A DNA stretch of 33,996 nt, taken from Alicyclobacillus acidiphilus NBRC 100859. Lineage in GTDB: Bacteria > Bacillota > Bacilli > Alicyclobacillales > Alicyclobacillaceae. Positions within the stretch are counted from its first letter, which is position 1; each line of letters opens with the position of its first letter. The DNA lies in assembly GCF_001544355.1 (NCBI RefSeq), contig NZ_BCQI01000030.1:1-33996 (forward strand), written 5' to 3'. The notes under the pieces are model-generated. The model had not been told where the DNA came from and ran no database searches. It was given only the letters and a program-made list of their open reading frames with translations. Shown here piece by piece: positions 12,009 to 32,665 of the stretch. Both the position numbers and the translations under genes were made by a program.

Positions 12009-13823
12009 TTGACAAAGAGGAATCGAATTCTTGCGTTTCTAGCAGCTCTCAGTTCGATCTCAGCACTAGGCATACCGTCCGCCGCCACGACATTTGCAGC
12101 TACGAGCAACACGTTCACGACCATCAACGGAGACCACCCGATTACAGCAGGGGCGCCAATGAATCCGTTCAATGCCACGCCCAACACGTTCATGGGCTAT
12201 GACGAGATGCAATTGGCTTGGTTTACTAACTCGGCGAACAACGAAAATGATTTCATCCCTGGACTGGCGAAGAGTTGGGTACAAAACAAGGCTGGGACTT
12301 CGGTTACGGTGACGCTTCAACCTGGGGCGAAATGGTCCAACGGACAGCCTGTCACGGCGCAGGATGTTGTGACATCGATGGCGATCGCGTTCACGCAAGG
12401 CGACGCCCAAGCATTCTTCCTAGGTTCCGTAAAAGCGCTTTCATCGAACAAGGTCCAGTTCAACCAGCTTCCTGGGCAGCATTACAACTTGTTCATGCAC
12501 GCCTTGTTGCAGTCGGTCATCGTGCCAACATCGGTCTATGGATCGCAGTTGCCAAAGAACATCTGGCAATTGATTGACACGTCGCAGTACGCGGGTTCGA
12601 ACAAGGCGAAGGCAGCCGCGGCGGCCAAGGCGGAGACGCAATTGACGAACCTCGGCAAAAAAATTGCGGCGTTTGCGCCGCCGACCGACGTTTCGGCAGG
12701 GCCGTTCGTGATCAAAAACCTCAATCCCGGCGAAGCGTATCTCACGAAGAACCCGTACTTCTATGCCGCGCAAAACGTGCACGTCGACAACGTCATCTTC
12801 CGCAACTACACGGGCAACCAACAAATCTGGAACTATCTGATTTCCGGCCAGTTGGATCAGGCGCCGTTTACATCGATGCCAACGAACATTCTGCAACAGG
12901 TGTTGCACGTGAAGACCAACAAGGAGCTTTCGACGCCGTCGTTCGTGGGTGCAGCGTTGGCATTCAATCAAAGCGCATATCCGTACAATCTGTTGGCTGT
13001 TCGGCAGGCCTTGGCGCACATCATCAACCGTCAAGACGTTCAGAAGGTCGGCGAACCGGTTTCCGGATCGGTCTCTGAGTACTCGGATGGCATGATTGAT
13101 GCGGCTACCAAGACCTGGTTGACAAAGTCGCAGATCAATTCTTTGGACAAGTACTCATACAACGTCGCGCTGGCGACGAAAGAGCTTGAGGCTGCCGGCT
13201 TCAAGAAGCAGAACGGCCAATGGATCATGCCAAACGGCAAACCGTGGACCGCGACAATTTACACGGTCAACGGTTTCAGCGACTGGATTGAGGCTTCCAA
13301 AGTCATCGCCAGTGAAATGACCAGCTTTGGCATCCCGACACAACCCAGCATCGTGAGCAGTTATTCGGAATATCTGCAACAACTGGCGGCTGGCAAGTAT
13401 CCGATTGGCTTCTGGCTGAACGCTTTAGGACCTTCGGCGTACGGCACATTCCAACGAATCTTCGGATCGCCGGACGGTTACAACGTGGTTGGTGGCAAGC
13501 TTCAATACTCGCCTGCGAGCGACAAGAGCGGTGGAAACTGGCTCGACATCTCGAAAGAGATCAAGCTTCTCAACGGCAAGGTGATCAATCCTGGTCAGTT
13601 GACGTACGCCTTGAACAATATGAACGCAGCCCAGCAGAAGACGGCCGTCGCCGAACTGGCTGAAGCGGCGAACGTGGATTTGCCGATGATCACGCTGTGG
13701 AACTACACGAACGTGCAGTTCGTGAACACGGCACGGTTTACCGATTTCCCGACGCAAACGGGTGTCTTGGACAATCCGGCTGGTGTCTGGATGGCGTTGG
13801 GCTATGTGAAGCCTGTGAAATAA
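12009..13823 (+). CDS. ABC transporter solute-binding protein, family 5, without lipobox
   Basis: The 604-residue SBP_bac_5 protein opens the second transporter operon. A basic N-terminus (MTKRNR), a hydrophobic core (ILAFLAALSSISALG) and AATTFAATS form a Sec signal peptide. There is no cysteine in this region, so no lipobox. The family signature appears as VTLQPGAKWSNGQPVTAQDV, followed by SAGPFVIKNLNPGEAYLTKN, VRQALAHIINRQDV and FGIPTQPSIVSSYSEYL. It starts at TTG 12009 behind AGGGGGAG. Ligands of the family are peptides, muropeptides or sugars. Downstream murein-catabolism genes make a muropeptide plausible (inference). How the protein stays at the cell surface is unclear: it may be retained by an uncleaved signal, or be soluble in the wall space. 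Confidence 0.9.
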   Translation: MTKRNRILAFLAALSSISALGIPSAATTFAATSNTFTTINGDHPITAGAPMNPFNATPNTFMGYDEMQLAWFTNSANNENDFIPGLAKSWVQNKAGTSVTVTLQPGAKWSNGQPVTAQDVVTSMAIAFTQGDAQAFFLGSVKALSSNKVQFNQLPGQHYNLFMHALLQSVIVPTSVYGSQLPKNIWQLIDTSQYAGSNKAKAAAAAKAETQLTNLGKKIAAFAPPTDVSAGPFVIKNLNPGEAYLTKNPYFYAAQNVHVDNVIFRNYTGNQQIWNYLISGQLDQAPFTSMPTNILQQVLHVKTNKELSTPSFVGAALAFNQSAYPYNLLAVRQALAHIINRQDVQKVGEPVSGSVSEYSDGMIDAATKTWLTKSQINSLDKYSYNVALATKELEAAGFKKQNGQWIMPNGKPWTATIYTVNGFSDWIEASKVIASEMTSFGIPTQPSIVSSYSEYLQQLAAGKYPIGFWLNALGPSAYGTFQRIFGSPDGYNVVGGKLQYSPASDKSGGNWLDISKEIKLLNGKVINPGQLTYALNNMNAAQQKTAVAELAEAANVDLPMITLWNYTNVQFVNTARFTDFPTQTGVLDNPAGVWMALGYVKPVK

Positions 13824-13842
13824 CGACAGCGTTGAACCTTGG

Positions 13843-13876
13843 ATCGGGGTCAGACCGAGTATGGCCTGCCCCCGAT
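13843..13876 (+). other. Intercistronic stem-loop between binding protein and permease (second operon)
   Basis: ATCGGGG (13843-13849) pairs with CCCCGAT (13870-13876). After one mismatch, CAG (13851-13853) pairs with CTG (13866-13868), leaving a 12-base loop. It lies 20 bases after the binding-protein stop and lacks a T-run. Its position matches the hairpin at 5078-5103 in the first operon, consistent with processing or partial termination that favours binding-protein expression. Confidence 0.55.
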
Positions 13877-13913
13877 TGTCATTTCACGTTTTATCAAATG
13901 GGGTGTTGTCATC

Positions 13914-14906
13914 ATGAAGACGGTGCTGGTGCGGCTGCTAAAACGTATCATCGGAGGCGTCATCATGATTCTTGTGGTGGCATCCTTTACGTTTTTCTTG
14001 GTCCGCATGATGCCGGGCAATCCGATTGAGGCGAAGTATGAACAACTGATCATGAGCGGCTACACGCCGGATCAGGCGATGAGCGCCGTGCGTGTGATGT
14101 ATGGTTTTATTCCGAAGCAGCCACTGTTTCAGCAATTTGTCACGTATCTCTGGCAGATTCTGCACTTGAATCTCGGGCAGTCGATTTCCTATGAGGGCAC
14201 GCCCGTGATGAAAATCATACTCGGTGCCGCGCCGTGGACCATCATCCTTGTCTTGACGGGTACGCTGGCGAGTTTTGTTGTCGGGGTCCTGGCAGGCGTG
14301 ATCGCGGCGATCCGGCGCAATAAAGTCTCCGGCAATTTAATCACAGTCTCCGGTTCCTTGCTGCACGGCATTCCGCAGTTTGTCATGGGATTGTTTTTGG
14401 CGTACGTGTTCACGACCATTTGGGCCGTTTTTCCGTACGGCGCCCCGTACGACGCGTCCTTGACGCCTGGGTTCAACTGGCCGTATATCGGCTCTTTGGC
14501 GTGGCACGCCATCTTACCCGTCGCGACATACGCTCTGTCGAGTTACGGCGGTTGGCTGCTGACCATGAAGTCAAGTGTGATCAGCGTGCTCGGCGACGAT
14601 TTCATTCTGGCTGCCGAGGTGCGAGGCATCAAACCGTCCATTCGCATGCGGTACATTGCGCAGAACGCGATGCTCCCCCTGTTCACCATCCTGGCCTTGT
14701 CCATCGGTTTCATGTTTGGCGGTTCCATCTTCATCGAGGATATCTTCGATTACCCCGGTCTTGGCAACATGCTGACCAACGCGATTTCGTACAAGGACTA
14801 TCCGCTGATGAGCGGCGCATTTTTGCTGATTACCGTGGCGATCATCGCCGCCAACATCGCGACCGACTTTCTATACTCTATCGTCGATCCACGAATTCGG
14901 AGGTGA
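13914..14906 (+). CDS. ABC transporter permease, DppB/OppB type (second operon)
   Basis: About 330 residues from ATG 13914. The frame is open back to 13839, but that part would cover the intercistronic hairpin and add a non-homologous head, so I reject it. The N-terminus is LKRIIGGVIMILVVASFTFFLV followed by RMMPGNPIEAKY as in DppB. The EAA loop is GDDFILAAEVRGIKPSIRMR, and the C-terminus ends YSIVDPRIRR. The ribosome binding site is poor (GGGGTG, 9-15 bases upstream), so translation may be modest compared with the binding protein. It builds the membrane pore with the next gene product. Confidence 0.92.
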   Translation: MKTVLVRLLKRIIGGVIMILVVASFTFFLVRMMPGNPIEAKYEQLIMSGYTPDQAMSAVRVMYGFIPKQPLFQQFVTYLWQILHLNLGQSISYEGTPVMKIILGAAPWTIILVLTGTLASFVVGVLAGVIAAIRRNKVSGNLITVSGSLLHGIPQFVMGLFLAYVFTTIWAVFPYGAPYDASLTPGFNWPYIGSLAWHAILPVATYALSSYGGWLLTMKSSVISVLGDDFILAAEVRGIKPSIRMRYIAQNAMLPLFTILALSIGFMFGGSIFIEDIFDYPGLGNMLTNAISYKDYPLMSGAFLLITVAIIAANIATDFLYSIVDPRIRR

Positions 14907-14912
14907 CGCAGC

Positions 14913-15824
14913 TTGGTTGTTGCCCAAACGCAATTATCAAACGGACAGGCACGCAGACGACATCATCGGGAACCGTTTTTGCGCTTCGCCTTAAAGACGA
15001 TTGTGAAGAAGCCTGGTCGACTGATTGGCTTCCTGATTATTGTCCTCTTTATCCTGATGGCGATCTTCGGCCCGATGCTGTATCCGAAGAACCTGCCCAT
15101 CGATCCCAACGCGATTTACGCGCCAATCAGCTGGAAGTATCCACTGGGCACGGATTTTGAAGGGACGAGCAATCTTGCGCTGGTGATCACCGGTGCCCGC
15201 TACGTGTTGTTCGCGGCGGCCATGGGCGCTTTGTTTACGGTCGTGTTCGGCACCGTGCTCGGGCTGTTGTCCGGCTATTTCGCAGGGGCGACCGACTCCG
15301 TCATCATGCGGATCACCGACTTTATCCTGACGTTGCCATCGTTCCCGCTCTTGGTCGTGCTCTCGACGGTGTGGAACTTCGGCCAACCGGTGGCGATGGG
15401 CTTCGTCTTAGGCATCACGGGGTGGGGCGGCCTGGCTCGCGCGGTTCGCTCGCAAACCCTGACCCTTCGTGAACGAGGCTTCATTGAAGCTGCTCGTGGT
15501 CTCGGCTTGTCCTCTGGTCACATTCTGTTTCGGCAACTGATGCCGAACGTTGGATCGTATATCGCGATGAATCTGCTACTCGCGGTCACCGGGAGCATTT
15601 ATGCGGAAGTTGGTTTGTTCTTCCTTGGCGTCGTGCCGTTTCACGTCAACAATTGGGGCGTGATGCTGAATTTGGCCGTGTTCTCCGGTGGCGCGATGTC
15701 CAGCCCGCAGGCTCTGCCATACTTGCTGTCGCCGATGCTGGCTTTGCTGATTTTGACGCTCGGTATCGTATTGTTCTTGGACGCTGTCGATGAAATGTTC
15801 AACCCTCGGTTGAGAGAGGTGTAG
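14913..15824 (+). CDS. ABC transporter permease, DppC/OppC type (second operon)
   Basis: The 303-residue inner-membrane subunit starts at TTG 14913, with GGAGGT about 7 bases upstream inside the end of the preceding gene. A short cytoplasmic tail precedes the first helix (LIGFLIIVLFILMAIFGPML). The DppC-type segment is YPLGTDFEGTSNLALVITGAR, where the usual GTDxxGRD is changed to GTDFEGTS. The EAA loop reads RERGFIEAARGLGLSSGHIL, and the C-terminus is DAVDEMFNPRLRE. It sits six bases after the partner permease stop and three bases before the ATPase gene. Confidence 0.92.
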   Translation: MVVAQTQLSNGQARRRHHREPFLRFALKTIVKKPGRLIGFLIIVLFILMAIFGPMLYPKNLPIDPNAIYAPISWKYPLGTDFEGTSNLALVITGARYVLFAAAMGALFTVVFGTVLGLLSGYFAGATDSVIMRITDFILTLPSFPLLVVLSTVWNFGQPVAMGFVLGITGWGGLARAVRSQTLTLRERGFIEAARGLGLSSGHILFRQLMPNVGSYIAMNLLLAVTGSIYAEVGLFFLGVVPFHVNNWGVMLNLAVFSGGAMSSPQALPYLLSPMLALLILTLGIVLFLDAVDEMFNPRLREV

Positions 15825-15827
15825 CGA

Positions 15828-16829
15828 TTGAACGCGGAACTGCAGTTGATAGATGCGCAAACAGCCGTTCAGGTGCGCGGATTGAACGTCGTCTACGAGA
15901 CGACTCAAGGCGATATCCCAGCTGTCCAGAACGTCAACCTGGACATTCGAAAGGGGCAGATCACCGGGATCATCGGCGAATCGGGATCGGGAAAATCCAC
16001 GCTGGTGATGGCGATGATGAACGCCGTCGCGAAGCCGGGCCGCGTGGCATCGGGGTCCATAGAGGTGTCGGGCGTCGGCGACATGATGAAGCTGTCGACG
16101 GAGCAACAGCGGAGGGCGCGCAGCACGGAACTCGGCCTCGTCTTTCAGGCGGCGCAGAATTCGCTGAATCCGTTGCGGCGGATTGGCCACCAGGTGCTGG
16201 ATCTCGGCCGTTCTCACGGCGTCAAGGACCTCCGCGCGCTTCTGCGAAAAGCAAAGGATCTTCTGGAGCGGCTGGGGCTCGACGCGGACCGCGTGCTGAC
16301 CGCCTACCAACACGAATTGTCTGGCGGCATGCGCCAGCGGGTCGGCATCATGTTCGCGCTGGTACTTGACGCGAAAGTGGTCATTTTGGACGAGGCGACG
16401 ACGGCGCTCGACATGCTGTCGCAGGCATCCGTGCTCCAGATTGTTCGAGAGTTGCACGAAGAACGCGGCTTGACGACCATTCTCATCACCCACGACATGG
16501 GTGTCGTCGGAGATCTCGCCGATCGCGTCGTCGTCATGTACGCTGGTTGCATCGTCGAAGAAGGTGTCACTCAGGAAGTTCTGACGAGTCCGAAACATCC
16601 GTATACGCGCGGCCTGATTCGCGCCATTCCGAGAATCAGCGGCGATATCGACAAGGCGGTGCCGCTGTCGGGATCGCCGCCCGACATGAACACATACAAG
16701 CAGCCTGGATGTTTGTTCGCGGATCGGTGTCCGTTGGCGGCGCCTGAGTGCCAACAGAGCCGCCCGCCGTTGTTGGAAGTGGAAACTGGGAGACATGTCG
16801 CATGCTTTCGGGTGAATGACCATGCTTGA
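15828..16829 (+). CDS. ABC transporter ATP-binding protein, OppD/DppD type (second operon)
   Basis: The 333-residue ATPase has Walker A GESGSGKST at 50-58, a Q-loop VFQAAQNSLNPLR, the signature LSGGMRQR, Walker B VVILDEATTALD and the switch LITHDMG. The C-terminal extension contains CLFADRCPLAAPEC, the OppD/F cysteine motif. It starts at TTG 15828, behind GAGAGGTG that overlaps the preceding stop. The Walker B motif reads DEAT rather than DEPT, a conservative change. The end overlaps the next ATPase gene by eight bases, indicating coupled translation. Confidence 0.92.
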   Translation: MNAELQLIDAQTAVQVRGLNVVYETTQGDIPAVQNVNLDIRKGQITGIIGESGSGKSTLVMAMMNAVAKPGRVASGSIEVSGVGDMMKLSTEQQRRARSTELGLVFQAAQNSLNPLRRIGHQVLDLGRSHGVKDLRALLRKAKDLLERLGLDADRVLTAYQHELSGGMRQRVGIMFALVLDAKVVILDEATTALDMLSQASVLQIVRELHEERGLTTILITHDMGVVGDLADRVVVMYAGCIVEEGVTQEVLTSPKHPYTRGLIRAIPRISGDIDKAVPLSGSPPDMNTYKQPGCLFADRCPLAAPECQQSRPPLLEVETGRHVACFRVNDHA

Positions 16830-17823
16830 AGTGAAAAACCTGAAACGGACGTTTACGACGAAGGACAATATGTTTGGACGCCGGGAGGTGAAGGCGGTCC
16901 GCGATGTCAGTTTTACGATTCCGGATGGAGGGGTTATCTCCTTCATTGGCGAATCAGGCTGTGGCAAGACGACGATTGGACGCATCGTGGCCGGACTGGA
17001 GACACCGACGGACGGCACCGTGCTCTTGGACGGGATCGACATCCACCGCGCGAATCCGAAAGAGCGGCGCGAACTGATGCGGCAAATTCAGTTGATTCAA
17101 CAGGATCCGTATCAGGCTTTGAATCCGGCGCACACCATTGAGGAGGCCTTGGCGCAGCCGCTGCGGCTGATGGCGAAGCGGAAGGCGGGGGTGTCGAACG
17201 CGTGGATCCAGGATCGGATGGCCGAGGTCCTGAGCTTGGTGGGACTCGATCCTGCGGCGATTCTCTACAAGTATCCGCACATGCTTTCCGGCGGCCAGCG
17301 ACAGCGCGTCGTCATTGCGCGCGCGCTCACCGTGGAGCCGAAGGTGCTGGTGGCGGACGAGGCGGTGTCGATGATCGACGTCTCGCTGCGGCTCGGCGTC
17401 TTGCATTTGCTGAGAAACCTGCGCGAGAAGCTGAACATCTCGGTCCTCTTCATCACGCACGATGTCGCCGCGTCGAGGTACTTGGGACGGGACGGCAAAG
17501 TCTTCGTGATTTACAAAGGGATGATTGTCGAGGAAGGCGCAACGGACACGGTCATCAACGGTCCGACACACCCGTACACGCAGGCGTTGCTGAGCGCCGT
17601 TCCTGTGCTGAAGGGACTGGAAGTGCCGGGATCGCAGCGGTTCTATGTGGAGAAGGAACTGAGCCAAGACGGCCTGTCCGAAGAGGGGTGCCTGTTTGCC
17701 AGCAGATGCCCGTTTGCCACGGCAGAGTGCAGACGGCAGCTTCCGCCGCTCGCGGGAGATTCGCACAAGAGTGCGTGTCTGTATCCATACGAGCGTCAGG
17801 TGACTGCGCGCATGCTGGATTGA
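16822..17823 (+). CDS. ABC transporter ATP-binding protein, OppF/DppF type (second operon)
   Basis: About 333 residues from ATG 16822. ATG 16816, two codons upstream, is an alternative, but GGTGA at 16811-16815 is better spaced for 16822. Walker A GESGCGKTT is at 43-51, then IQQDPYQALNPAH (Q-loop), LSGGQRQR (signature), VLVADEAVSMID (Walker B) and FITHDVA (switch). The C-terminal extension carries CLFASRCPFATAEC. Like its partner it has an alanine after the catalytic glutamate (DEAV). It completes the five-gene transporter, and a GNAT gene follows 24 bases later. Confidence 0.92.
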   Translation: MLEVKNLKRTFTTKDNMFGRREVKAVRDVSFTIPDGGVISFIGESGCGKTTIGRIVAGLETPTDGTVLLDGIDIHRANPKERRELMRQIQLIQQDPYQALNPAHTIEEALAQPLRLMAKRKAGVSNAWIQDRMAEVLSLVGLDPAAILYKYPHMLSGGQRQRVVIARALTVEPKVLVADEAVSMIDVSLRLGVLHLLRNLREKLNISVLFITHDVAASRYLGRDGKVFVIYKGMIVEEGATDTVINGPTHPYTQALLSAVPVLKGLEVPGSQRFYVEKELSQDGLSEEGCLFASRCPFATAECRRQLPPLAGDSHKSACLYPYERQVTARMLD

Positions 17824-17847
17824 GACGATTTGAAGGAGATGGGATTC

Positions 17848-18321
17848 ATGCCCGATATGCTTGTCAAGCTGTACGAATTGCCTGACGAAAGGCCTTATCT
17901 CGAGAAGATGAAGGAGCACGGCATTGTGATTCGCCGGGCGATCGCGCCAGAAAAGCGACTGGTCGTTGGGTTTGCCCGGGATCGATTCAATCCCGCGTGG
18001 GGCGACGAATGCGAAGTGGCCTTCAGCCGCCTGCCCGTATCGTGTTGGATTGCCCATACGTCCGAGGAACTCGTGGGCTTTGCTTGTTACGACTCGACTC
18101 AGAAGGGCTTTTTTGGTCCGACGGGCGTGCTGCCGTCGCAACGGGGGAAAGGTGTCGGCGCGGCATTGCTGGTGCTGTCGCTCAAGGCGATGTATGCGGA
18201 GGGCTACGCCTACGGTGTCATCGGTGGGGCCGGGCCGACCGAATTTTACGAGAAAATCGTCGGTGCAACCGTGATTGAGGGGTCAGCTCCTGGCGTGTAC
18301 CGGCATATGTTGAAAGAGTAG
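17848..18321 (+). CDS. GNAT-family N-acetyltransferase
   Basis: The 157-residue GNAT protein starts at ATG 17848, with AAGGAG at 17833-17838. An upstream in-frame TTG at 17830 precedes that RBS and is unlikely. The acetyl-CoA-binding motif A is seen as GVLPSQRGKGVGAALLVLSL (R/Q-x-x-G-x-G/A type). An acceptor-side beta strand, SCWIAHTSEELVGFACYD, lies before it, and a C-terminal FYEKIVGATVIEGSAPGVYR lies after it. It is the last gene of the second Opp operon and ends 11 bases from the convergent RpiR-type gene, with no obvious terminator between. Its substrate is unknown. An amine on an imported peptide or amino sugar is a possibility from context only. Confidence 0.8.
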   Translation: MPDMLVKLYELPDERPYLEKMKEHGIVIRRAIAPEKRLVVGFARDRFNPAWGDECEVAFSRLPVSCWIAHTSEELVGFACYDSTQKGFFGPTGVLPSQRGKGVGAALLVLSLKAMYAEGYAYGVIGGAGPTEFYEKIVGATVIEGSAPGVYRHMLKE

Positions 18322-18332
18322 AAACGGTCGGT

Positions 18333-19193
18333 TCATGAATTGAGTTTATGAGTCTTGACCACGTCGCGCGTCGCTTCGAGTGACGCGTAGACGTCTTCGC
18401 GGTAGCGATTCGCCAAATAGATGAATAGGGTATCGATCATAATCAGCGCGCAAATTCTCGACGCGGTTGCGGCGACCCGGACCTGGGGCTCGACGGCGCT
18501 GGTGTACAGCGAGATGTCGGCCAGGCGGCTGAGCGGTGTATCGCCAAAGCGGGTGATGGCAATCACCGTGACGCCGTTCCCTTTGGCGAGTTCCGCGACT
18601 TCGATCACGTCGGACGTCGTGCCGGAATCGGACACGGCGAGGAAGACGTCACCCGGTCGCAACTGCGTCGCGAGGATGGCGGCTTGGTGAAAGTCGTGGA
18701 CGCAATTGACGGGAAACCCGACGCGCGTCAGTTTTTGGGCAAAATCGGCAGCGACGACCTCGGAAGCGCCAACGCCCATCGTCATCGTGCGTTTGGCTTT
18801 GTGCAGAGCCTCCGCAGTCGCCTGGATATCGGCTTCTTTGAGAAGTTTGAGCGTGTTTTGGATCGATTGAACACTGCTGCTCTCGACGGAGTGCAGGATG
18901 GTGCCAAACGAACTGTTTTCGGAAAGTTCGACATACTTGTTTTGCGGCGTGGATTGCAAGTCGCTCGCGACACGGAGTTTCAGATCTTGGTAGCCATCGA
19001 AACCGAGTGATTTCCAAAGCCGGACGACCGCCGCTGAACTGCCTCCGCTCAGTTGGGCCAGTTCGTGAACTGTTGTATTGATAAACTGTTCTGGATTTTC
19101 GAGAATATATTTCGCGATTTTGGCTTCCGAATCGGGCAAGGATTCGATGGACTCCTGAAGTCGTACGAGTCCCCCTCCTGGCATGTACAACAC
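18333..19193 (-). CDS. RpiR-family regulator with SIS domain, MurR-like
   Basis: The 286-residue protein has an N-terminal RpiR helix-turn-helix at about residues 10-80 (VHELAQLSGGSSAAVVRLWK, then SLGFDGYQDLKLRV). A C-terminal SIS domain at about 125-260 (GVGASEVVAADFAQKLTRVG, AVSDSGTTSDVIEVAELAK) normally senses a sugar phosphate. GTG 19193 follows GGGGGAAGGG closely, and ATG 19184 is an equally good start. It is divergent from the murein-catabolism operon, next to an AmiE-like gene. This matches the MurR setting of Bacillus and enteric bacteria, where MurNAc-6-P is the inducer. MurNAc-6-P as effector and the operators at 19308-19347 are inferences. Confidence 0.9.
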   Translation of the reverse strand: MLYMPGGGLVRLQESIESLPDSEAKIAKYILENPEQFINTTVHELAQLSGGSSAAVVRLWKSLGFDGYQDLKLRVASDLQSTPQNKYVELSENSSFGTILHSVESSSVQSIQNTLKLLKEADIQATAEALHKAKRTMTMGVGASEVVAADFAQKLTRVGFPVNCVHDFHQAAILATQLRPGDVFLAVSDSGTTSDVIEVAELAKGNGVTVIAITRFGDTPLSRLADISLYTSAVEPQVRVAATASRICALIMIDTLFIYLANRYREDVYASLEATRDVVKTHKLNS

Positions 19194-24294: not shown

Positions 24295-24297
24295 GCG

Positions 24298-25823: not shown

Positions 25824-25849
25824 TCGCAACTCAGACGATTCGACATACT

Positions 25850-25985: not shown

Positions 25986-26057
25986 TTTATTGAATTGATT
26001 AAAATGATAATTCATACTGTGTCTTAGACATGATCGTTTCGAAGAGAGGTTATCGTG

Positions 26058-27134
26058 GTGAAACTCGTTCAAGCATCGGTGGAAGTCCGTGAAATACCTC
26101 TGCGCACAACATTTCGGACGGCGCTTCGTTCTACCAGTTCTGTTACGGACATTCGCGTCCGTTTGGAAACCGACGAGGGCTTGGTCGGCTGGGGTTCCGC
26201 TTCGCCGACTCCCGCCATCACGGGTGAAACCGAGGGCTCCATCGTGTACGCGATTGAACGGCATCTGTTCCCTGTTCTCGAAGCTTCCGATCTCGACGAC
26301 GAACACGCTGTCCTCGCCGCCATTCAGCGGGCGATTGTCCGCAACACGGCGGCCAAAGCGGCAGTCGATATCGCCCTTCACGATCTCTACGCAAAGCGGG
26401 CAGGCCTGCCGCTTTGGCGGCGCACTGGGAGTCAGCCCGGCGCCATTGAGACGGATGCGACGGTCAGCTTGAACCGGGTGGAGGCGATGATCGACGAAGC
26501 GAGGGATTATTGCGCGAAAGGGTTCAAGGTGCTGAAAGTGAAGCTTGGCGGCCGAGACGGCTTGGATATGGAACGCCTCTTCGGCATCCGCTCCAGCGTG
26601 GACGAGGAGATCCAGCTGCGCGTCGACGCGAATCAAGCGTGGTCCGCGAAAGAGGCTATCGGTTACTTGGCGACGATGGAGAAGCTCTGTGTCGACTACC
26701 TGGAGCAGCCCGTGCCAGCGTGGGATCTGGCGGGGCTGGCCGCGGTGGCGCAGGCGAGCTCACTGCCGGTTGTCGCGGACGAAAGCGTGTTTGGGATGAC
26801 CGATTTGCTCAAAGTGATCGATCAGCGGGCGGCAGACATCGTCAATCTCAAATTGATGAAGACGGGCGGCATCACGATCGCGCTGCAAATGGTTCAGACG
26901 ATTCGGGCGGCCGGCTTGGATTGGATGGTGGGCAGCATGATGGAGGGGCCCATCTCCGTCACCGCGGCCGCCATCCTGGCCGCATCCCAGGGGTGTCGGC
27001 ACGTGGATTTGGACGCGGGCATGTTCTTGGGCGATCACCCGCTTCAGGGCGGGATATCGTACGAAGGACCGAGGATTGTCCTGCCGAGTGGAGAAGGTGT
27101 TGGGATTGACGGTGACAGACGAGGGAGTGGATGA
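26058..27134 (+). CDS. L-Ala-D/L-Glu dipeptide epimerase, YkfB-like
   Basis: The 358-residue protein of the enolase superfamily (muconate-lactonizing subgroup) has all the active-site elements. The K-x-K pair is K160/K162 (KVLKVKLG), and the metal ligands are D190 (RVDANQAW), E216 (EQPV) and D241 (ADES). The second base is K265 or K268 (NLKLMKTGG). The D317-x-D319 motif in HVDLDAGM binds the dipeptide amino group in known L-Ala-D/L-Glu epimerases. The reaction turns L-Ala-D-Glu from the stem peptide into L-Ala-L-Glu, which ordinary peptidases can split. GTG 26058 has better spacing to GAGAGG than GTG 26055. It leads the operon with the two-subunit 2-hydroxyacid dehydrogenase. Confidence 0.92.
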   Translation: MKLVQASVEVREIPLRTTFRTALRSTSSVTDIRVRLETDEGLVGWGSASPTPAITGETEGSIVYAIERHLFPVLEASDLDDEHAVLAAIQRAIVRNTAAKAAVDIALHDLYAKRAGLPLWRRTGSQPGAIETDATVSLNRVEAMIDEARDYCAKGFKVLKVKLGGRDGLDMERLFGIRSSVDEEIQLRVDANQAWSAKEAIGYLATMEKLCVDYLEQPVPAWDLAGLAAVAQASSLPVVADESVFGMTDLLKVIDQRAADIVNLKLMKTGGITIALQMVQTIRAAGLDWMVGSMMEGPISVTAAAILAASQGCRHVDLDAGMFLGDHPLQGGISYEGPRIVLPSGEGVGIDGDRRGSG

Positions 27135-27138
27135 CTGC

Positions 27139-28554
27139 ATGGTGGATACGAATAGTTCCATCCGATCTCGACTGTGCGCCATCGTGGGCGAAGATTCCGT
27201 TCGGGACAGCGCCAACGAGCGCCACGCGTATTCGTACGACGCAACGCCCATCGTGACCGGGGCGCCGGATTGGATTGTGTTTCCGCAAACGACGCGGCAG
27301 GTTTCGGAAGTCCTGCGCCTTGCCAACGAAGAGCGAATCCCGGTGATCCCGCGTGGATCAGGGACCAATTTGGCGGGTGGAACCGTGGCTGTGGCAGCCG
27401 GGATCGTGCTGAACATGACGCGGTTCAATCGGATTGTCGAGATCGACGAAAGCAATTTGACTGTGACGGTTGGGCCTGGCGTGATCACGGCGGATTTGCA
27501 CCGGGCTGTGGAAGCGCGCGGTTTGTTCTATCCGCCCGATCCGGGGAGTATGCGGATTTCCACGATTGGCGGCAACGTCGCCCAGGGCGCGGGCGGTATG
27601 CGCGGCTTGAAGTACGGTGTCACCAAAGACTACGTGTTGGGCTTGGAATATGTCCTGCCTACAGGTGAAATTCTGCGATGCGGCGGCAAGAACTACAAAG
27701 ATGTGGCGGGGTACGATTTGACGCGCCTTTTGGTCGGGTCTGAGGGCACGCTCGCGGTGATTACCGAGTTGACGTTGAAACTCTTGCCTTTACCAGAAAG
27801 CAAGCGCACCATGGTCGTCTATTGCAAGCGCATGGTCGATGCGGCACGGATTGTGGAGCGGACCATCGCCGCGAAAATCATCCCGGCCACGATGGAATTC
27901 CTGGATCAGTCGACGATGCGCGTGGTGGATCAATTTGCTCACCTGGGCCTGCCCACCGACGTGGCCGCGATGCTGCTGATTGAGCAGGACGGTGTCGAAC
28001 AGCAGGTGGATCGGGATATCGATCGGATTGCCCAGATTGCCCGCAAAGTTGGCGCGACAGACGTTCAGGTGGCGAACACGCCGGAGGACGGGGCAAGGTT
28101 GATGGCGGCACGCCGCTCCGCCCTCGCCGCCCTGTCAAGACTGCGCCCGACCACGATCCTGGAGGATGCGACGGTGCCGAGATCGGAATTGGCGACGATG
28201 GTCAGCGAGATCGAGCGCATCGCTGAGAAATATCAGGTGCAAATCTGCACATTCGGCCACGCGGGGGACGGCAATCTGCATCCGACCTGCATGACCGACG
28301 AACGCGACGCCGAGGAATTGGAGCGCGTGGACGCGGCTTTCGCGGAGATTTTCGAAGTGGCTCTTCGTCTCGGCGGCACCATCACCGGGGAACACGGTGT
28401 CGGCATGGCGAAGGCCAAATTTTTGCCGAAGCGTGTGGGCGAAGATGGGATTCAACTGATGATGCGGTTGAAGCAGGCGTTCGATCCCAACGGCATTTTG
28501 AATCCTGGGAAGATATTTGTTCGGGTACCGGACTGGCAGCATGTCGCTGAATGA
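27139..28554 (+). CDS. FAD-linked 2-hydroxyacid dehydrogenase subunit, GlcD type (D-lactate dehydrogenase candidate)
   Basis: The 471-residue flavoprotein starts at ATG 27139, four bases after the epimerase stop. The frame continues upstream into the epimerase gene, but that part has no RBS. FAD-binding motifs are PRGSGTNLAGG (71-81), TIGGNVAQGAGG (142-153) and GYDLTRLLVGSEGTLAVIT (191-209). The C-terminal substrate and metal site is seen as EDATVPRS (342-349), FGHAGDGNLHP (372-382) and GEHGVGMAKAKFL. The family oxidises glycolate, D-lactate or D-2-hydroxyglutarate and passes electrons to an iron-sulfur partner. Because MurQ produces D-lactate, D-lactate oxidation to pyruvate is the most economical reading of this context. 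Glycolate remains possible, since sequence alone does not decide. Confidence 0.9.
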   Translation: MVDTNSSIRSRLCAIVGEDSVRDSANERHAYSYDATPIVTGAPDWIVFPQTTRQVSEVLRLANEERIPVIPRGSGTNLAGGTVAVAAGIVLNMTRFNRIVEIDESNLTVTVGPGVITADLHRAVEARGLFYPPDPGSMRISTIGGNVAQGAGGMRGLKYGVTKDYVLGLEYVLPTGEILRCGGKNYKDVAGYDLTRLLVGSEGTLAVITELTLKLLPLPESKRTMVVYCKRMVDAARIVERTIAAKIIPATMEFLDQSTMRVVDQFAHLGLPTDVAAMLLIEQDGVEQQVDRDIDRIAQIARKVGATDVQVANTPEDGARLMAARRSALAALSRLRPTTILEDATVPRSELATMVSEIERIAEKYQVQICTFGHAGDGNLHPTCMTDERDAEELERVDAAFAEIFEVALRLGGTITGEHGVGMAKAKFLPKRVGEDGIQLMMRLKQAFDPNGILNPGKIFVRVPDWQHVAE

Positions 28555-28588
28555 AATGGTTCCCGGAACGATGGGGTGGTGAGAAGCG

Positions 28589-29875
28589 ATGACGGATCGC
28601 GTACCCGTTCTCAATATGGATGAGATTCTCAATTGCATGCACTGCGGATTTTGCCTGCCGACCTGTCCGACATACGAACAGACGGGATTGGAGACGCAGA
28701 GTCCGCGCGGCCGCATTGCCTTGATGAAGGCGGTCGCGGAGCAGAAGCTGCCCGTCGACGACGAATTCGCGTCCAACATGTACGCCTGTCTCGGCTGTCG
28801 AGCCTGCGAGACAGCGTGCCCAGCCGGCGTGAAGTACGGACAGTTGCTGGAGGACGCGCGCGAACTCGTCGAAGACGTGAAACGCGGTGACAGGCGTCGA
28901 TCATTCCGCAGAGACCTCGCCTTAAAGCGGTTGTTCATGCATCCGGGCAGGATGCGCCTGGCGGGCAACCTCCTGTGGGCCGTGCAGGCGTCTGGATTGC
29001 AGCGACTGGCCAACCGCACCGGCATGGTTCGAATCCTGCCAAAGGAAATGGCCGAGATGCAGCGCGCGGTGGATCCGGTGGCTTCACCCGGCCAGCGAAA
29101 AGGCCGCCAAGCCGTCATTCCCGCGCGGCGATCGCAGCCTCGGGTCCCGCGCGTCGGCGTGTTCACAGGATGCGTGATGGATGTTCTCTTCCACCAAACC
29201 AACGAAGCGACCGCCCGCATCCTCGCCCACGCGGGGTGTGAAGTGGTGTTTCTTGAAGGGACTGCCTGCTGCGGGGCTTTGCACGCGCATGCCGGAGAAA
29301 AGGCGAGCGCCATCGATCTCGCCAAACAAAACATCGAAGCGTTTGAAGAGGCCGGTGTCGACTTCATGGTCAACAACGCGGGCGGCTGCGGCGCCGCGCT
29401 CAAGGAGTACGCGGTGTGGCTGAACGATCATCCCAGGTGGTCGGAACGCGCGAAACGTTTTGTCGACGCCACCCGAGACGTCAGCGAACTGTTGGCCGAA
29501 CTTCCGGACTTCGAGTTTACCAAGCGGCTCGATCTCCGCGTAACCTATCAAGATTCCTGCCATCTGGCGCATGGACAGGGCGTTCGCACCCAGCCGCGGG
29601 ACTTGCTGCGGCGGATCCCTGGCGTCACCTACGTGGAGTTGCCCCGCGCCGACAGCTGCTGCGGCTCAGCCGGCATCTACAACATCACGAATTTCGAGAT
29701 GTCGATGGACATTTTGGACACCAAGATGAATCACGTTCGCGGCACGATGGCCGACGTGGTGGTCACGTCGAATCCAGGGTGCCTGCTGCAGATGAAACAG
29801 GGCATCATCCGGGCGGGCTTAGAAGGGAAAATGAGGGCGATGCACATCGTCGACGTGATCGCGATGGCTTTGTGA
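28589..29875 (+). CDS. Iron-sulfur subunit of 2-hydroxyacid dehydrogenase, GlcF type
   Basis: The 428-residue partner of the GlcD-type flavoprotein. Two 4Fe-4S motifs are C16/C19/C22/C26 (CMHCGFCLPTCP) and C67/C70/C73/C77 (CLGCRACETACP). Two CCG domains follow, with TGCVMDVLF, GTACCGALHAHAGE and NNAGGCGAAL in the first and YQDSCHLAHGQG, ADSCCGSAGIYN and SNPGCLLQMK in the second. Such CCG domains pass electrons towards the quinone pool or bind further clusters. It starts at ATG 28589, 34 bases after the flavoprotein gene, behind GGTGGTGAG. A tandem heptamer repeat begins three bases after the stop, followed by palindromic repeats. Confidence 0.92.
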   Translation: MTDRVPVLNMDEILNCMHCGFCLPTCPTYEQTGLETQSPRGRIALMKAVAEQKLPVDDEFASNMYACLGCRACETACPAGVKYGQLLEDARELVEDVKRGDRRRSFRRDLALKRLFMHPGRMRLAGNLLWAVQASGLQRLANRTGMVRILPKEMAEMQRAVDPVASPGQRKGRQAVIPARRSQPRVPRVGVFTGCVMDVLFHQTNEATARILAHAGCEVVFLEGTACCGALHAHAGEKASAIDLAKQNIEAFEEAGVDFMVNNAGGCGAALKEYAVWLNDHPRWSERAKRFVDATRDVSELLAELPDFEFTKRLDLRVTYQDSCHLAHGQGVRTQPRDLLRRIPGVTYVELPRADSCCGSAGIYNITNFEMSMDILDTKMNHVRGTMADVVVTSNPGCLLQMKQGIIRAGLEGKMRAMHIVDVIAMAL

Positions 29876-29878
29876 TGC

Positions 29879-29920
29879 GGGATGGGGGATGCGGGATGCG
29901 GGATGGGGGATGGGGGATGC
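29879..29920. repeat. Tandem heptamer array, six GGGATGS units
   Basis: Six uninterrupted units of GGGATGC or GGGATGG begin just after the GlcF-type stop, followed by a partial unit GGGAT that merges into the first palindromic repeat. Four or more G-triplets separated by short loops meet the simple G-quadruplex pattern on the plus strand, that is, in the mRNA sense. Copy number is likely to vary by slippage. Confidence 0.9.
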
Positions 29921-29923
29921 GGG

Positions 29924-29946
29924 ATAAGCAGCTCACAGCCGCTTAT
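29924..29946. repeat. Copy of the TAAGCRGCT palindrome family
   Basis: ATAAGC pairs with GCTTAT and GCT pairs with AGC around a three-base CAC centre, with one A/C mismatch between the two stem parts. It is almost identical in sequence to the copy at 30034-30062. Confidence 0.75.
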
Positions 29947-29971
29947 CTTTGTCGAATCTTCGAATTGGCAT

Positions 29972-30000
29972 CGAATAAACGTCCGTGAGCAGCTTATTCG
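29972..30000. repeat. Inverted copy of the TAAGCRGCT palindrome family
   Basis: CGAATAA (29972-29978) pairs with TTATTCG (29994-30000). Read on the minus strand, the interior runs AAGCTGCTCACGGACG, a diverged version of the AAGCAGCTCACAGCCG core. The opposite orientation shows that the element inserts or turns over in both directions. Confidence 0.6.
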
Positions 30001-30033
30001 ACCGAAAACCGGCGCGATCGGCGGTCGTGGAGA

Positions 30034-30062
30034 GAAATAAGCAGCTCACAGCCGCTTATTTC
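30034..30062. repeat. Best-preserved copy of the TAAGCRGCT palindrome family
   Basis: GAAATAAGC pairs with GCTTATTTC and GCT pairs with AGC around CAC, giving a 12-bp stem with one mismatch and a three-base loop. The core is the same as at 29924-29946, and the flanks extend the pairing. Confidence 0.8.
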
Positions 30063-30086
30063 GTTCGAATCGGCCGGACAGAGTCA

Positions 30087-30111
30087 AATAAGCGGCTCTC
30101 GGCGGCTTAAT
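30087..30111. repeat. Copy of the TAAGCRGCT palindrome family
   Basis: The sequence reads AATAAGCGGCT, a short CTCGGCG-type centre and GGCTTAAT, keeping the outer AAGC/GCTT pairing with several changes. The rest of the 494-base gap between the GlcF-type stop and ATG 30370 is C-rich low-complexity sequence (30138-30190) and a promoter region, with no gene. Confidence 0.6.
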
Positions 30112-30205
30112 CGCGTCGACGGTTCTGCGGATCGCGCTCGACCGCCCCCGCCTCCGCCGCCCCGCTGGCCCATCCGCCGCCCCATCTGCCCATATCAGAA
30201 TGGAA

Positions 30206-30234
30206 TTGTTGTTTTCAGTATGATTCCGTATCAT
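30206..30234 (+). promoter_or_regulatory. Candidate promoter of the Gfo/Idh/MocA gene
   Basis: TATCAT (30229-30234, five of six matches) has a weak -35 TTGTTG (30206-30211) 17 bases upstream. ATGAT (30220-30224) and ATCAT (30230-30234) form a small inverted repeat over the -10 that could be an operator half-site pair. The leader to ATG 30370 would be about 130 bases. Confidence 0.35.
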
Positions 30235-30369
30235 GGTGAATAGTTCTTGATTTGTCTAGTCGTGCTATGACGAAACGCGGCTGTCGCTGCGAGGTTGATG
30301 CGCGAATGCTGCCGCTGCGTTCCACCGATGTATTCGTCCATCGTTTGTGACCATGAGGAGGTCGGTTTC

Positions 30370-31362
30370 ATGATTCGAGTCGCCATGCTGAGTTTCTGGC
30401 ACGTGCACGCAAGAGATTACGCCCGGCAGGTTGCTGAACACCCTGATACGGAAATTGTCGCGGTTTGGGACGAGATTCCGGAACGTGGTCAGGTAGAGGC
30501 CGACAGATTGTCCGTCCCGTTTTACGCGTCGTTAGACGAACTCTTGGGACAGGAGGATATCGACGGCGTGATCGTCGATGCGCCGACGAATATGCACGGC
30601 GAGGTCCTGACGAAGGCCGCGGTGGCAGGGAAACACATTTTTACCGAGAAGGTCCTGGCGCTGACGCTGGAGGAAGCGAATCGGATTGTGTCAGCCGTTC
30701 AGGAAAACGGTGTCAGGCTGACAGTGTCACTGCCGCGGCTGAACGACGATTACACAGTGGCCATTGAAGACATTCTGGCGAAGGGGTGGCTCGGTCAGCT
30801 ATCGCTCGTGCGCGTTCGGTTGGCGCACCATGGCGCGTCGAACGATTGGCTCCCGGCGCATTTTTACGATCCAATCCAATGCGGAGGCGGCGCGTTGACC
30901 GATCTCGGCTGTCACCCGCTGTACCTCACGCGCCTCTTCCTGGGCTTGCCGCAGGCTGTGAGCGCGCATTACGGCTATTTGACCAACCGCGCCGTGGAGG
31001 ACAACGCCGTCGCCATTCTTACGTACGAAGACGGCGCGCTGGGCGTCGTCGAAACGAGCTTCGTCAGCGGGGCACCATCGTTCAGCATCGAGATCCACGG
31101 AACGAAGGGCTCTGTGCTGTATGGTTTCGGGGAAGACAAACTGCTGGTGAAGACTTCGGAGCGGGAACCAAACGAATGGACGACATACGAACTTGGCGGC
31201 GCTCGGCCGTCCGCGCTGGAGCAATGGGTGAAGCACATTCAGGAGGGTACCGCCGCGGACGAGAACGTCGCGATGGCGATTGACTTGACCAGACTCGTGG
31301 AAGCCGCGAACCGTTCTGTGAAACTCGGGGCACCGGTGAAGCTGACAGATCTCCAGGGATAA
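30370..31362 (+). CDS. Gfo/Idh/MocA-family oxidoreductase
   Basis: The 330-residue protein starts at ATG 30370, with GAGGAGGT seven bases upstream. The frame is open back to 30295, but that leader precedes the RBS. An N-terminal Rossmann domain (1-120) carries VAMLSFWHVHARDYARQ, VAVWDEIPERGQ and VDAPTNMHGEVLTKAAVAGK. The usual EKP motif is EKVLAL here. The C-terminal half has the substrate-side motif GGGALTDLGCHPLYLTRLFL with the catalytic-type histidine. The family carries out NAD(P)-dependent oxidation or reduction of sugars, inositols and related compounds. The nucleotide loop lacks the common GxGxxG form, as in some subfamilies that open with a histidine pair. The substrate is unknown. 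It converges on nagA through a shared terminator. Confidence 0.88.
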   Translation: MIRVAMLSFWHVHARDYARQVAEHPDTEIVAVWDEIPERGQVEADRLSVPFYASLDELLGQEDIDGVIVDAPTNMHGEVLTKAAVAGKHIFTEKVLALTLEEANRIVSAVQENGVRLTVSLPRLNDDYTVAIEDILAKGWLGQLSLVRVRLAHHGASNDWLPAHFYDPIQCGGGALTDLGCHPLYLTRLFLGLPQAVSAHYGYLTNRAVEDNAVAILTYEDGALGVVETSFVSGAPSFSIEIHGTKGSVLYGFGEDKLLVKTSEREPNEWTTYELGGARPSALEQWVKHIQEGTAADENVAMAIDLTRLVEAANRSVKLGAPVKLTDLQG

Positions 31363-31409
31363 TCGGGGCCGGCGCGCTTGCCGAGACTCACCGCGACTCA
31401 AATGAAATA

Positions 31410-31458
31410 GCCGGGCTGCCGGAACCTCAGCCGCAAGACGAGGTTCCGGCAGCCCGGC
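31410..31458. terminator. Strong bidirectional terminator between the Gfo/Idh/MocA gene and nagA
   Basis: A perfect 19-bp inverted repeat (31410-31428 and 31440-31458) encloses an 11-base loop. The plus-strand side is followed by TTCGCTTTTCTT. It lies 47 bases after the oxidoreductase stop and 13 bases beyond the end of the convergent nagA gene, so it serves both. Confidence 0.88.
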
Positions 31459-31471
31459 TTCGCTTTTCTTC

Positions 31472-32665
31472 TCAAACTCGCTCGAACACGCTCTTTCCCG
31501 ATATCCACGTCCGCTTCACTTGAAGTGATTCGTCGAGCAGGACGAGATCGGCGTCATACCCAACGGCGATCCGGCCTTTTCGCGAAGCCAGGCCGAGTTC
31601 GCGCGCTGGCACCGCGCTGGCCATGGCGACGGCGTCGGGCAGCGATACGCCGACGCGGTTGGCCATGTTGCGGACCGCCGCGTCCATCGTCAAGGTGCTG
31701 CCAGCCAAGGTTTGTCCGTCCTGCAGCAGGCATATCCCCGCTTTGACCGTGACGTCGAGCCCGCCGAGTTTATACGCGCCGTCAGGTCTACCGGCGGCGG
31801 CGATGGCGTCCGTGATCAACATGAGGCGATCCCTGCCCTTCAACCGATACGCCAGTTTGAGCATGTCAAAGTCCACGTGATGGCCGTCGGCGATGATCTC
31901 GCAGACGACGTTGTCGGACAGCAGGCTGGCGCCGACAGTTCCGCCGTCGCGATGGTGCAAACCGCGCATGGCGTTGAACAGGTGCGTCGCGTGCGAAGCG
32001 CCTTGTTGGATGGCGTGCATGGCTTGGCTGAAGGACGCGTCCGTGTGGCCCATCGAGACGATCGCGTTGCGGGTTAAGAGAAGTCGAATGACCTCGTCGG
32101 CTCCGGCCAGTTCGGGCGCGATCGTCACCTTGCGCACCAAGTCGGGAACGGTGTCAAGAAGCTGCGTCATCGTGGGAACGTCGGGATCGATCCGATGTGC
32201 CGGATTTTGCGCGCCGATCCGCTTCGCCGAGATCATGGGCCCTTCCAGGTGAACGCCGAGTATCGCGGCGCCCCCTTCCGCCGCGGCTGGCGTGTCGCGG
32301 ACCTCGGCGACGGCCAACAACGCGCGTTGGAGCGCCGCGGCTGGACCGACCACCGTCGTGGGCAGCCAACCGGTCGTACCGTGCTTCGCATGAAAGCGGC
32401 CGATGCGTGCGATGGCCTCGGCGGTGCCGTCCATCACTTCCGCCCCATCGGCACCGTGGACGTGCACGTCGACGAAGCCTGGCACAAGCCATTGTCCGTC
32501 CGCGTCAACCACGTCAGCGCCGCCCGCAAAGAGCGACTCCGGTGGCGTGCCGTCTCCCAACTCTGTCACGATCCCGCCGCTCACGGCCAACCAGCCGTCC
32601 TCGATCACGTTGTCGCCGCTGACGATCCGCGCGCGATGGATCAACGTTGTTCTCCCAGTGTTCAT
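31472..32665 (-). CDS. nagA: N-acetylglucosamine-6-phosphate deacetylase
   Basis: The 397-residue amidohydrolase-superfamily enzyme converts GlcNAc-6-P to GlcN-6-P and acetate. Metal and active-site landmarks are H68-V-H70-G (VDVHVHG), E141 (GVHLEGP), H207 (SMGHTDA), H228 (HATHLFNAM), H262/H263 (IADGHHVD) and the catalytic D286 (LITDAIAA). It starts at ATG 32665 behind AAAGGGG. It takes the GlcNAc-6-P that MurQ would produce. It follows the second serine hydrolase on the minus strand after an 80-base gap. That gap contains a direct repeat GTTACC-GCTA-GTTACC (32716-32731), phased by one helical turn, which might be a protein-binding site. GlcN-6-P deaminase (NagB) is not in the window. Confidence 0.95.
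   Translation of the reverse strand: MNTGRTTLIHRARIVSGDNVIEDGWLAVSGGIVTELGDGTPPESLFAGGADVVDADGQWLVPGFVDVHVHGADGAEVMDGTAEAIARIGRFHAKHGTTGWLPTTVVGPAAALQRALLAVAEVRDTPAAAEGGAAILGVHLEGPMISAKRIGAQNPAHRIDPDVPTMTQLLDTVPDLVRKVTIAPELAGADEVIRLLLTRNAIVSMGHTDASFSQAMHAIQQGASHATHLFNAMRGLHHRDGGTVGASLLSDNVVCEIIADGHHVDFDMLKLAYRLKGRDRLMLITDAIAAAGRPDGAYKLGGLDVTVKAGICLLQDGQTLAGSTLTMDAAVRNMANRVGVSLPDAVAMASAVPARELGLASRKGRIAVGYDADLVLLDESLQVKRTWISGKSVFERV

Follow-up and report, generated by a model that had tools for sequence, protein, structure and literature searches.

The island at positions 12,009 to 32,665 of contig C30 of Alicyclobacillus acidiphilus NBRC 100859 joins an Opp-type ATP-binding cassette (ABC) importer, OppA2-F2, to genes for breaking down cell-wall sugars and peptides. 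We consider it likely to be a muropeptide uptake and catabolism locus, whose importer takes up soluble peptidoglycan fragments and whose enzymes act in the cytosol. The window, that is, the whole stretch of DNA analysed (33,996 bases), is the entire contig, one of 165 in an assembly of 3.86 Mb. An earlier note made from this sequence had proposed that the genes form an island, centred on an Opp-type importer, for taking up and catabolising peptidoglycan fragments, and both the protein families and their linkage across genomes support that proposal.

Across the order, the N-acetylmuramic acid (MurNAc) 6-phosphate etherase MurQ was found in 22 of 59 genomes, at 27 places including the window. 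Opp genes of the OppA2-F2 type adjoin MurQ in nine relatives (at L040 the contig stops short of the binding protein, and L058 retains only a fragment of it), and AmiE-like, CocE, MurK-like, NlpC/P60, epimerase and MurR-like genes recur around MurQ in differing combinations. The close OppA2 clade, defined by more than 900 bits against the binding-protein profile plus the G054 fragment, occurs in 10 genomes of the order, all 10 of them MurQ-positive. Clustering of OppA2 with MurQ is well above the family-5 control: 9 of 10 clade proteins lie within 12 kb of MurQ, as compared to 2 of 82 other family-5 hits (E ≤ 1e-20; Fisher p 6e-10, kinship ignored) in a search whose first pass scored at most 22 candidates per genome.

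When named genomes were searched with the OppA2 alignment alone, 300 loci were confirmed; we retained the best 80 and identified their neighbouring genes by tblastn (E 1e-8) in fetched flanks of up to 10 kb. These 80 loci cover Alicyclobacillus, Sulfobacillus, Sporolactobacillus and one Peptococcaceae genome, together with about a dozen actinomycetotal genera, one Chloroflexi metagenome-assembled genome (MAG) and one Proteobacteria MAG. MurQ lies near the importer in 65 of them, an AmiE-like hydrolase in 60 and a GNAT acetyltransferase in 46, followed by NagZ homologues (37), MurR-like regulators (35), MurK-like kinases (25), NagA (4) and NagB (3); GlcD was not found at any locus. The earlier note had named as evidence against an island a consistent separation of Opp and mur/ykf genes in related genomes; these counts and those for the OppA2 clade show them to be frequent neighbours. 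Because the linkage is conserved both in the order and across the 80 loci, a single pathway is supported.

Every gene named in the earlier note is an open frame in its place, and MurQ and the N-acetylglucosamine (GlcNAc) 6-phosphate deacetylase NagA exceed their curated equivalog cut-offs. We judged curated models by NCBIfam or equivalog cut-offs and Pfam models by gathering scores, the latter being passed by SBP_bac_5, HTH_6 with SIS, Beta-lactamase, BcrAD_BadFG, SH3_6 with NLPC_P60, and MR_MLE. From position 12,009 the order is a binding protein, two permeases, two ATPases and a GNAT protein, then a regulator on the opposite strand (Table 1). An AmiE-like hydrolase, a BadF kinase, a CocE hydrolase, MurQ and an SH3-NlpC/P60 peptidase follow in a row, spaced by at most 14 bases; after a gap of 452 bases come an epimerase, GlcD and GlcF, and further downstream a Gfo/Idh oxidoreductase (30295-31362) and, on the opposite strand, NagA. 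The earlier gene inventory thus stands for the genes it named, and it had overlooked the GNAT, CocE, GlcD and GlcF genes.

Two of the functions that this pathway calls for are encoded outside the window. As the earlier note reported, MurP, NagZ, LdcA and NagB are absent from the annotated frames of this one contig. NagZ and NagB are present on contig C56 of the same genome, where a second BadF kinase, NagZ and NagB lie on one strand with neighbours overlapping or 34 bases apart. NagA and NagB, the complement of the MurQ pathway, are thus both in the genome and above their cut-offs. PTS_EIIC, the phosphotransferase system (PTS) family of MurP, had no match in the genome in a search that was positive in 7 of 14 control genomes. 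Peptidase_S66, the family of LdcA, likewise had no match in the genome, other LD-carboxypeptidase families not having been searched; it occurs in 5 of the 59 genomes of the order.

The names of the kinase and the AmiE-like hydrolase are less secure than those of MurQ and NagA. The only NCBIfam model to match the kinase was NagK, at 90.5 bits against a cut-off of 370. Among solved structures its best relative is 8zo3, labelled a MurNAc/GlcNAc kinase (123.7 bits), ahead of a hexokinase (80.3) and of GlcNAc kinases (at most 62.7), so that it appears closest to characterised MurK and is predicted to phosphorylate MurNAc. AmiE of Bacillus subtilis has a beta-lactamase fold, and the window's AmiE-like protein matches the Pfam family of that fold. 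Its top NCBIfam model is PBP4B/YfeW (164.2 bits, cut-off 385), and S75, K78, Y163, H312 and G314 are identical in all 71 aligned proteins, window included, with D165 kept in 70.

To assess where the enzymes act, we applied a home-made and crude export-signal rule, not SignalP, which left out proteins under 90 bits or with a match starting after query residue 80; its sets count some places twice, since the named loci include L036, L037, L039, L042 and L057 a second time. By this rule OppA2 has an export signal in 79 of 81 proteins and a lipobox in 65 of 81. No positives were found for MurQ (0/35), the MurR-like regulator (0/42), the MurK-like kinase (0/16), NlpC/P60 (0/12), CocE (0/8) or NagA (0/6), and few for NagZ (1/26), the AmiE-like hydrolase (3/52) and NagB (1/5). 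The window's AmiE-like, CocE, NlpC/P60 and MurQ proteins and the C56 NagZ were all among those in which the rule detected no export signal. A first version of the score had flagged 28 of 52 AmiE-like proteins, which we read as their first beta-strand, and the stricter rule was substituted. Since the catabolic enzymes mostly lack an export signal and OppA2 carries one, the pattern points to fragments that would be imported and then dismantled in the cytosol. The window OppA2 has a signal peptide (12009-12110) and no lipobox cysteine, as do its counterparts in L037 and L039.

What OppA2 carries can be approached through its relatives. Its profile scored highest against the solved structures 4pft and 1vr5 (90.5 bits each), followed by a chitin-oligosaccharide binder (85.7) and a mannoside binder (71.6), with OppA proteins at 58.5 or less, MppA at 46.2 and DppE at 34.5 bits. 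Most of the top relatives, 4pft and 1vr5 included, presumably bind sugars. The AlphaFold model of OppA2 (mean predicted local distance difference test score, pLDDT, 48.3) was too poor for use. Taken with the 37 of 80 loci in which a NagZ homologue neighbours the importer, these sequence similarities favour a disaccharide or disaccharide-peptide, and the most likely substrate would be intact GlcNAc-MurNAc-peptide or its sugar part, taken apart in the cytosol.

Three other accounts of the cargo were weighed. The importer may instead carry free MurNAc or a MurNAc disaccharide released by external autolysins or amidases, with the AmiE-like protein in another role. The lack of a PTS_EIIC match, the sugar binders among the closer OppA2 relatives, the esterases among the nearest solved relatives of the AmiE-like protein and the NamZ and AnmK genes that adjoin a further Opp importer on contig C7 all fit this account, which overlaps the sugar part of the substrate that we prefer. 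We nevertheless consider it unlikely, given a hydrolase with an invariant active site, usually without export signal, in 60 of 80 loci and the peptide-side enzymes that share the window's cluster. The earlier note had supposed that the substrate is a MurNAc-peptide from which GlcNAc was already removed outside the cell, as NagZ is missing from the window; the AmiE-like, MurK-like and MurQ proteins would suffice for such a substrate, and NagZ of B. subtilis is described as working outside the cell (PMC5061867). This inference falls because NagZ and NagB are present elsewhere in the genome, beside a second kinase. No export signal was seen in that NagZ or in 25 of 26 NagZ proteins, and NagZ homologues accompany the importer in nearly half of the loci, leaving the extracellular version rather improbable. 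Least probable of all is an importer of free stem peptides or murein tripeptide, a role proposed for the dpp/ykf locus of B. subtilis, with the sugar genes fed by another transporter: the Opp family, the oligopeptide-binding label of 1vr5, the epimerase and peptidase in the island and the ykf genes adjoining the dpp transporter in B. subtilis (PMC2954226) are set against an importer that accompanies MurQ, AmiE-like and NagZ genes across the 80 loci, with epimerase and NlpC/P60 in only 3 each, and against MppA and DppE scores well under that of the chitin-oligosaccharide binder.

For the preferred reading, import of peptidoglycan fragments with cytosolic breakdown, we propose the following route, in which all substrates, reactions and regulatory steps are predictions from sequence. 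OppA2-F2 would import soluble fragments, either GlcNAc-MurNAc-peptide or its sugar part, and the C56 NagZ would strip GlcNAc in the cytosol. The AmiE-like hydrolase would cut the peptide off MurNAc. Phosphorylation of both sugars, MurNAc and GlcNAc, would fall to the BadF kinases, and conversion of MurNAc 6-phosphate to GlcNAc 6-phosphate and D-lactate to MurQ. NagA and then the C56 NagB would lead to fructose 6-phosphate, and GlcD-GlcF would oxidise the D-lactate. The stem peptide would be dismantled by the NlpC/P60 peptidase, the epimerase and probably CocE, and GNAT possibly re-acetylates sugars that have lost their N-acetyl group. Expression would be under the MurR-like regulator, whose gene is read divergently from the amiE-like one.

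Several observations weigh against this reading. MurQ was not seen in the fetched flanks of 15 of the 80 loci, and five of these 15 are Bacillota that do carry AmiE-like, NagZ and MurR-like genes. CocE, NlpC/P60 and the epimerase each occur near the importer in just 3 of 80, and 26 of the 80 loci are titled Nonomuraea, so the loci are non-independent. The link to NagZ is indirect in this genome, as NagZ lies on a different contig from the importer, and the NagZ homologue of L135 has a twin-arginine-like start that the export rule missed. The labels of the closest OppA2 relatives are mixed, 4pft being labelled ABC transporter substrate-binding protein and 1vr5 oligopeptide binding, and seven of the rows that follow in the structure search are labelled peptide-binding. 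The nearest solved relatives of the AmiE-like protein are IS11 and carboxylesterases, and the name is suggested by fold, active site and genomic company. It is because of these mixed labels and the IS11 and esterase relatives that our confidence is not higher. The five MurQ-less Bacillota loci (L065, L066, L068, L069 and L070) comprise three Sulfobacillus and two MAGs, in which MurNAc may follow another route. Six of the 80 loci (L063, L076, L088, L094, L134 and L139) had none of MurQ, AmiE-like, NagZ, NagA, MurR-like or MurK-like genes in their flanks; five of them have one shortened flank, and those of L134 are full.

The island shares MurQ, a MurR-type regulator, an amidase-like hydrolase and NagZ (here elsewhere in the genome) with the murQ-murR-murP(-amiE-nagZ) loci of B. 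subtilis and Staphylococcus aureus. It differs from the Bacillus route, in which AmiE and NagZ are described as acting outside the cell and MurP as importing MurNAc (PMC5061867), in that AmiE-like and NagZ proteins here lack a detected export signal and that, with no PTS_EIIC match in the genome, an ABC importer and a separate kinase would replace MurP. By analogy, the island appears to resemble recycling through AmpG or YepA-YejBEF more than it does the Bacillus route. Agrobacterium YepA-YejBEF is described as a tested ABC importer of intact muropeptides, with NagZ and an amidase in the cytosol (PMC9790009); the island is predicted to match it in having an ABC importer whose binding protein is of peptide type, and NagZ and an amidase in the cytosol. 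The two importers nonetheless belong to different branches, as OppB2 scored 84.5 bits on the YejB model (cut-off 445) and best on Opp2B (206.4), and there are two ATPase genes here as compared to one yejF. The same study reports YepA to be confined to Alphaproteobacteria (PMC9790009).

On the peptide side, the island is comparable to dpp-ykfABCD of B. subtilis, where, as here, genes for an SH3b-NlpC/P60 peptidase and an L-Ala-D/L-Glu epimerase are found close to a family-5 importer (PMC2954226). Unlike that system, our genome has no Peptidase_S66 match, the peptidase has Asn in place of Asp256, and the island includes sugar-side genes. A MurK-like kinase coupled to MurQ recalls Clostridium acetobutylicum MurK and the murTKQ genes of Tannerella forsythia, the latter described as an ATP-dependent MurNAc kinase coupled to MurQ (PMC10465942); T. 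forsythia uses the transporter MurT, unlike the Opp importer of the island. Other Gram-positives also do without MurP: a 2016 study of Gram-positive recycling gives Streptomyces coelicolor as having MurQ and lacking a MurP orthologue (PMC5061867), and a 2026 preprint states that none of the studied Mycobacteriales encode MurP homologues (PMC13041923).

An importer linked to MurQ, AmiE-like and NagZ genes makes cell-wall fragment uptake in such MurP-less Gram-positives a testable question. Importers of the OppA2-F2 kind beside cell-wall-sugar genes in many Gram-positives may represent an undescribed uptake route. We tentatively advance, as a possibility that falls a little short of being probable, that OppA2-F2 exemplifies a new class of ABC muropeptide importer that carries intact disaccharide-peptides into the cytosol where PTS-MurP is lacking, as the Gram-positive equivalent of AmpG, working with CocE as stem-peptide hydrolase and a re-acetylating GNAT. 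The proposed class would range over Bacillota, Actinomycetota, a Chloroflexi MAG and a Proteobacteria MAG. If true, GNAT would restore N-acetyl groups ahead of the glycosidase and the kinases. Searches of the open literature returned no description of an Opp-type muropeptide importer in Gram-positives, and this novelty is provisional, as subscription literature lay mostly outside the search. In C. acetobutylicum, murQ and murK presumably also have oligopeptide-transporter genes close by, which would make it the closest precedent and shrink the novelty. The island also points to a hydrolase family (CocE) and an acetyltransferase family (GNAT) as possible partners in muropeptide use, a tie not found in the literature consulted.

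Table 1. Features of the island on contig C30 and of the kinase-NagZ-NagB group on contig C56 (scores in bits; cut-off, model threshold).
Feature	Contig	Position	Strand	Scores and remarks
OppA2, family-5 solute-binding protein	C30	12009..13823	+	PF00496 148; signal peptide, lipobox Cys absent
OppB2 permease	C30	13839..14906	+	Start 13839 or later (uncertain); Opp2B 206.4, Opp4B 177.5, both below cut-off
OppC2 permease	C30	14913..15824	+	Opp4C 181.2, below cut-off
OppD2 ATPase	C30	15828..16829	+	Top model OppD 259.2, below cut-off
OppF2 ATPase	C30	16816..17823	+	Top models dipeptide ATPase 285.5, OppF 247.0, below cut-offs
GNAT N-acetyltransferase	C30	17830..18321	+	PF00583 27.7, cut-off 20.7
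RpiR/SIS regulator, MurR-like	C30	18333..19193	-	HTH_6 + SIS; divergent from catabolic operon
Perfect inverted repeat GTTTCAAT-5-ATTGAAAC	C30	19327..19347		Candidate operator
AmiE-like serine hydrolase, beta-lactamase fold	C30	19372..20466	+	PF00144 220; candidate MurNAc-L-Ala amidase
MurK-like BadF/BcrAD sugar kinase	C30	20481..21539	+	PF01869 114
CocE/NonD (S15) hydrolase	C30	21546..23264	+	TIGR00976 421.4, cut-off 66.3
MurQ, MurNAc-6-phosphate etherase	C30	23254..24294	+	TIGR00274 382.7, equivalog cut-off 302
SH3b-NlpC/P60 cysteine peptidase, gamma-D-Glu-diamino acid endopeptidase-like	C30	24298..25602	+	SH3_6 + NLPC_P60
YkfB-like L-Ala-D/L-Glu epimerase	C30	26055..27134	+	MR_MLE; closest solved relative 1jpm
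GlcD-type FAD-linked dehydrogenase	C30	27076..28554	+	Real start probably about 27139; TIGR00387 545.6, slightly below cut-off 567.9
GlcF-type iron-sulfur partner of GlcD	C30	28589..29875	+	
NagA, GlcNAc-6-phosphate deacetylase	C30	31472..32665	-	TIGR00221 346.2, equivalog cut-off 225.65
Second BadF kinase	C56	6014-7048		Same strand as NagZ and NagB
GH3 NagZ	C56	7032-8645		PRK05337 215.1, cut-off 207
NagB	C56	8680-9414		TIGR00502 272.4, cut-off 236.9

The NlpC/P60 enzyme, called YkfC-like in the earlier note, has the expected SH3_6 and NLPC_P60 architecture, with catalytic C307, H366 and H382 invariant in eight aligned proteins; its nearest solved relative is 3m1u. The YkfC subfamily is described as defined by Asp256 (BcYkfC numbering), which reads the free L-Ala amine (PMC2954226). 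The equivalent position, its column checked against 3h41, is Asn325 in the window, and the eight proteins divide equally into four Asp and four Asn. In the alignment to 3h41, the SH3b column of BcYkfC Tyr118 is insecure. YkfC is thus unsuitable as a family name here because the defining Asp is replaced, even though architecture and catalytic residues bear the comparison out. It could nonetheless act as a gamma-D-Glu-diamino acid endopeptidase, perhaps tolerating a blocked N-terminus. The epimerase is closest to a solved L-Ala-D/L-Glu epimerase (1jpm, 255.7 bits) and has all of the K-x-K, D-x-N, DES and D-x-D-A motifs, with scores below the NCBIfam epimerase cut-offs (203.7 against 500 and 134.4 against 343).

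The nearest solved relative of CocE is a cocaine esterase. Its clade (at least 60% identity) occurs in 12 genomes of the order, all 12 MurQ-positive (hypergeometric 6e-7, kinship ignored), and in nine of them it is no more than 10 kb from MurQ; distant homologues occur in MurQ-negative genomes too. Ser131 and Asp253 are kept in all 10 sequences covering them, and the AlphaFold model (mean pLDDT 54.7) was too poor for use. CocE may act on the stem peptide. A simple swap of CocE for LdcA is not supported, as judged by Peptidase_S66 alone: just five of the 59 genomes of the order have this family, and three of the five (G021, G040 and G055) have a close CocE too, lying near MurQ in G021 and G040.

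The window GNAT gene starts 10 bases after OppF. Of the 74 sources in which 700 or more bases follow OppF, 44 are named loci that likewise have a GNAT on the strand of OppF and no further than 1.5 kb behind it; all 44 are Actinomycetota, with 28-40% identity and an extrapolated distance of about 300-520 bases. We suspect that it re-acetylates de-N-acetylated muropeptides or sugars. The MurQ reaction releases D-lactate, according to the 2016 study (PMC5061867), which GlcD-GlcF could oxidise. The nearest solved relatives of GlcD are the glycolate oxidase 9qgz and the lactate dehydrogenase LctD (7qh2), and since they include a glycolate oxidase, glycolate may also be a substrate. In L053 and L054, GlcD-GlcF come directly after the NlpC/P60 gene, with MurQ close by.

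The regulator reaches no curated NCBIfam cut-off (MurR model, 106.4 bits for a cut-off of 408; top model PRK11337, 165.9 for 378), and domain content and position alone suggest the name MurR. Its candidate operator gave 2 matches at up to 3 mismatches, with 0.14 expected. The same repeat was not found upstream of the regulator in relatives, and a repeat of loose similarity, TTTTCAAT / GTGAAAA, is present in L043. Scans of the window with Rfam (gathering thresholds) and for tRNAs gave no matches, and promoter and terminator scans gave values close to shuffled sequence. G+C, the one sign of horizontal transfer considered, runs at about 0.51-0.56 over the first 16 kb of the window and at 0.56-0.63 beyond.

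Other loci of this genome carry related genes. On C56 (L060, 10859-19679), a C1-like peptidase (Peptidase_C1_2) lies 1.4 kb past nagB and is followed by insertion-sequence-like genes. The C7 locus (L147, 3178-13081, minus strand) is a further fragment-import locus, with an SBP1-type Opp importer, NamZ, GNAT (two domain matches), a PIG-L deacetylase and AnmK; an export signal is not obvious in its NamZ. The Gfo/Idh oxidoreductase of the window has a 68% identical paralogue on contig C59 (L148, 3149-4177), near an OppA2 paralogue and a regulator, a context from which it may belong to a related sugar pathway. At the contig end (32746-33996, minus strand) lies a second beta-lactamase-fold protein, and the frame upstream of it consists of repeated Pro-Ser-Arg. 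Ahead of the island, positions 2228-11397 hold another Opp importer together with a LacI regulator and an enzyme resembling GH35/GLMA exo-beta-glucosaminidases, and probably represent an amino-sugar oligosaccharide locus; Opp genes of this type also occur near MurQ in L045, L047, L049 and L055.

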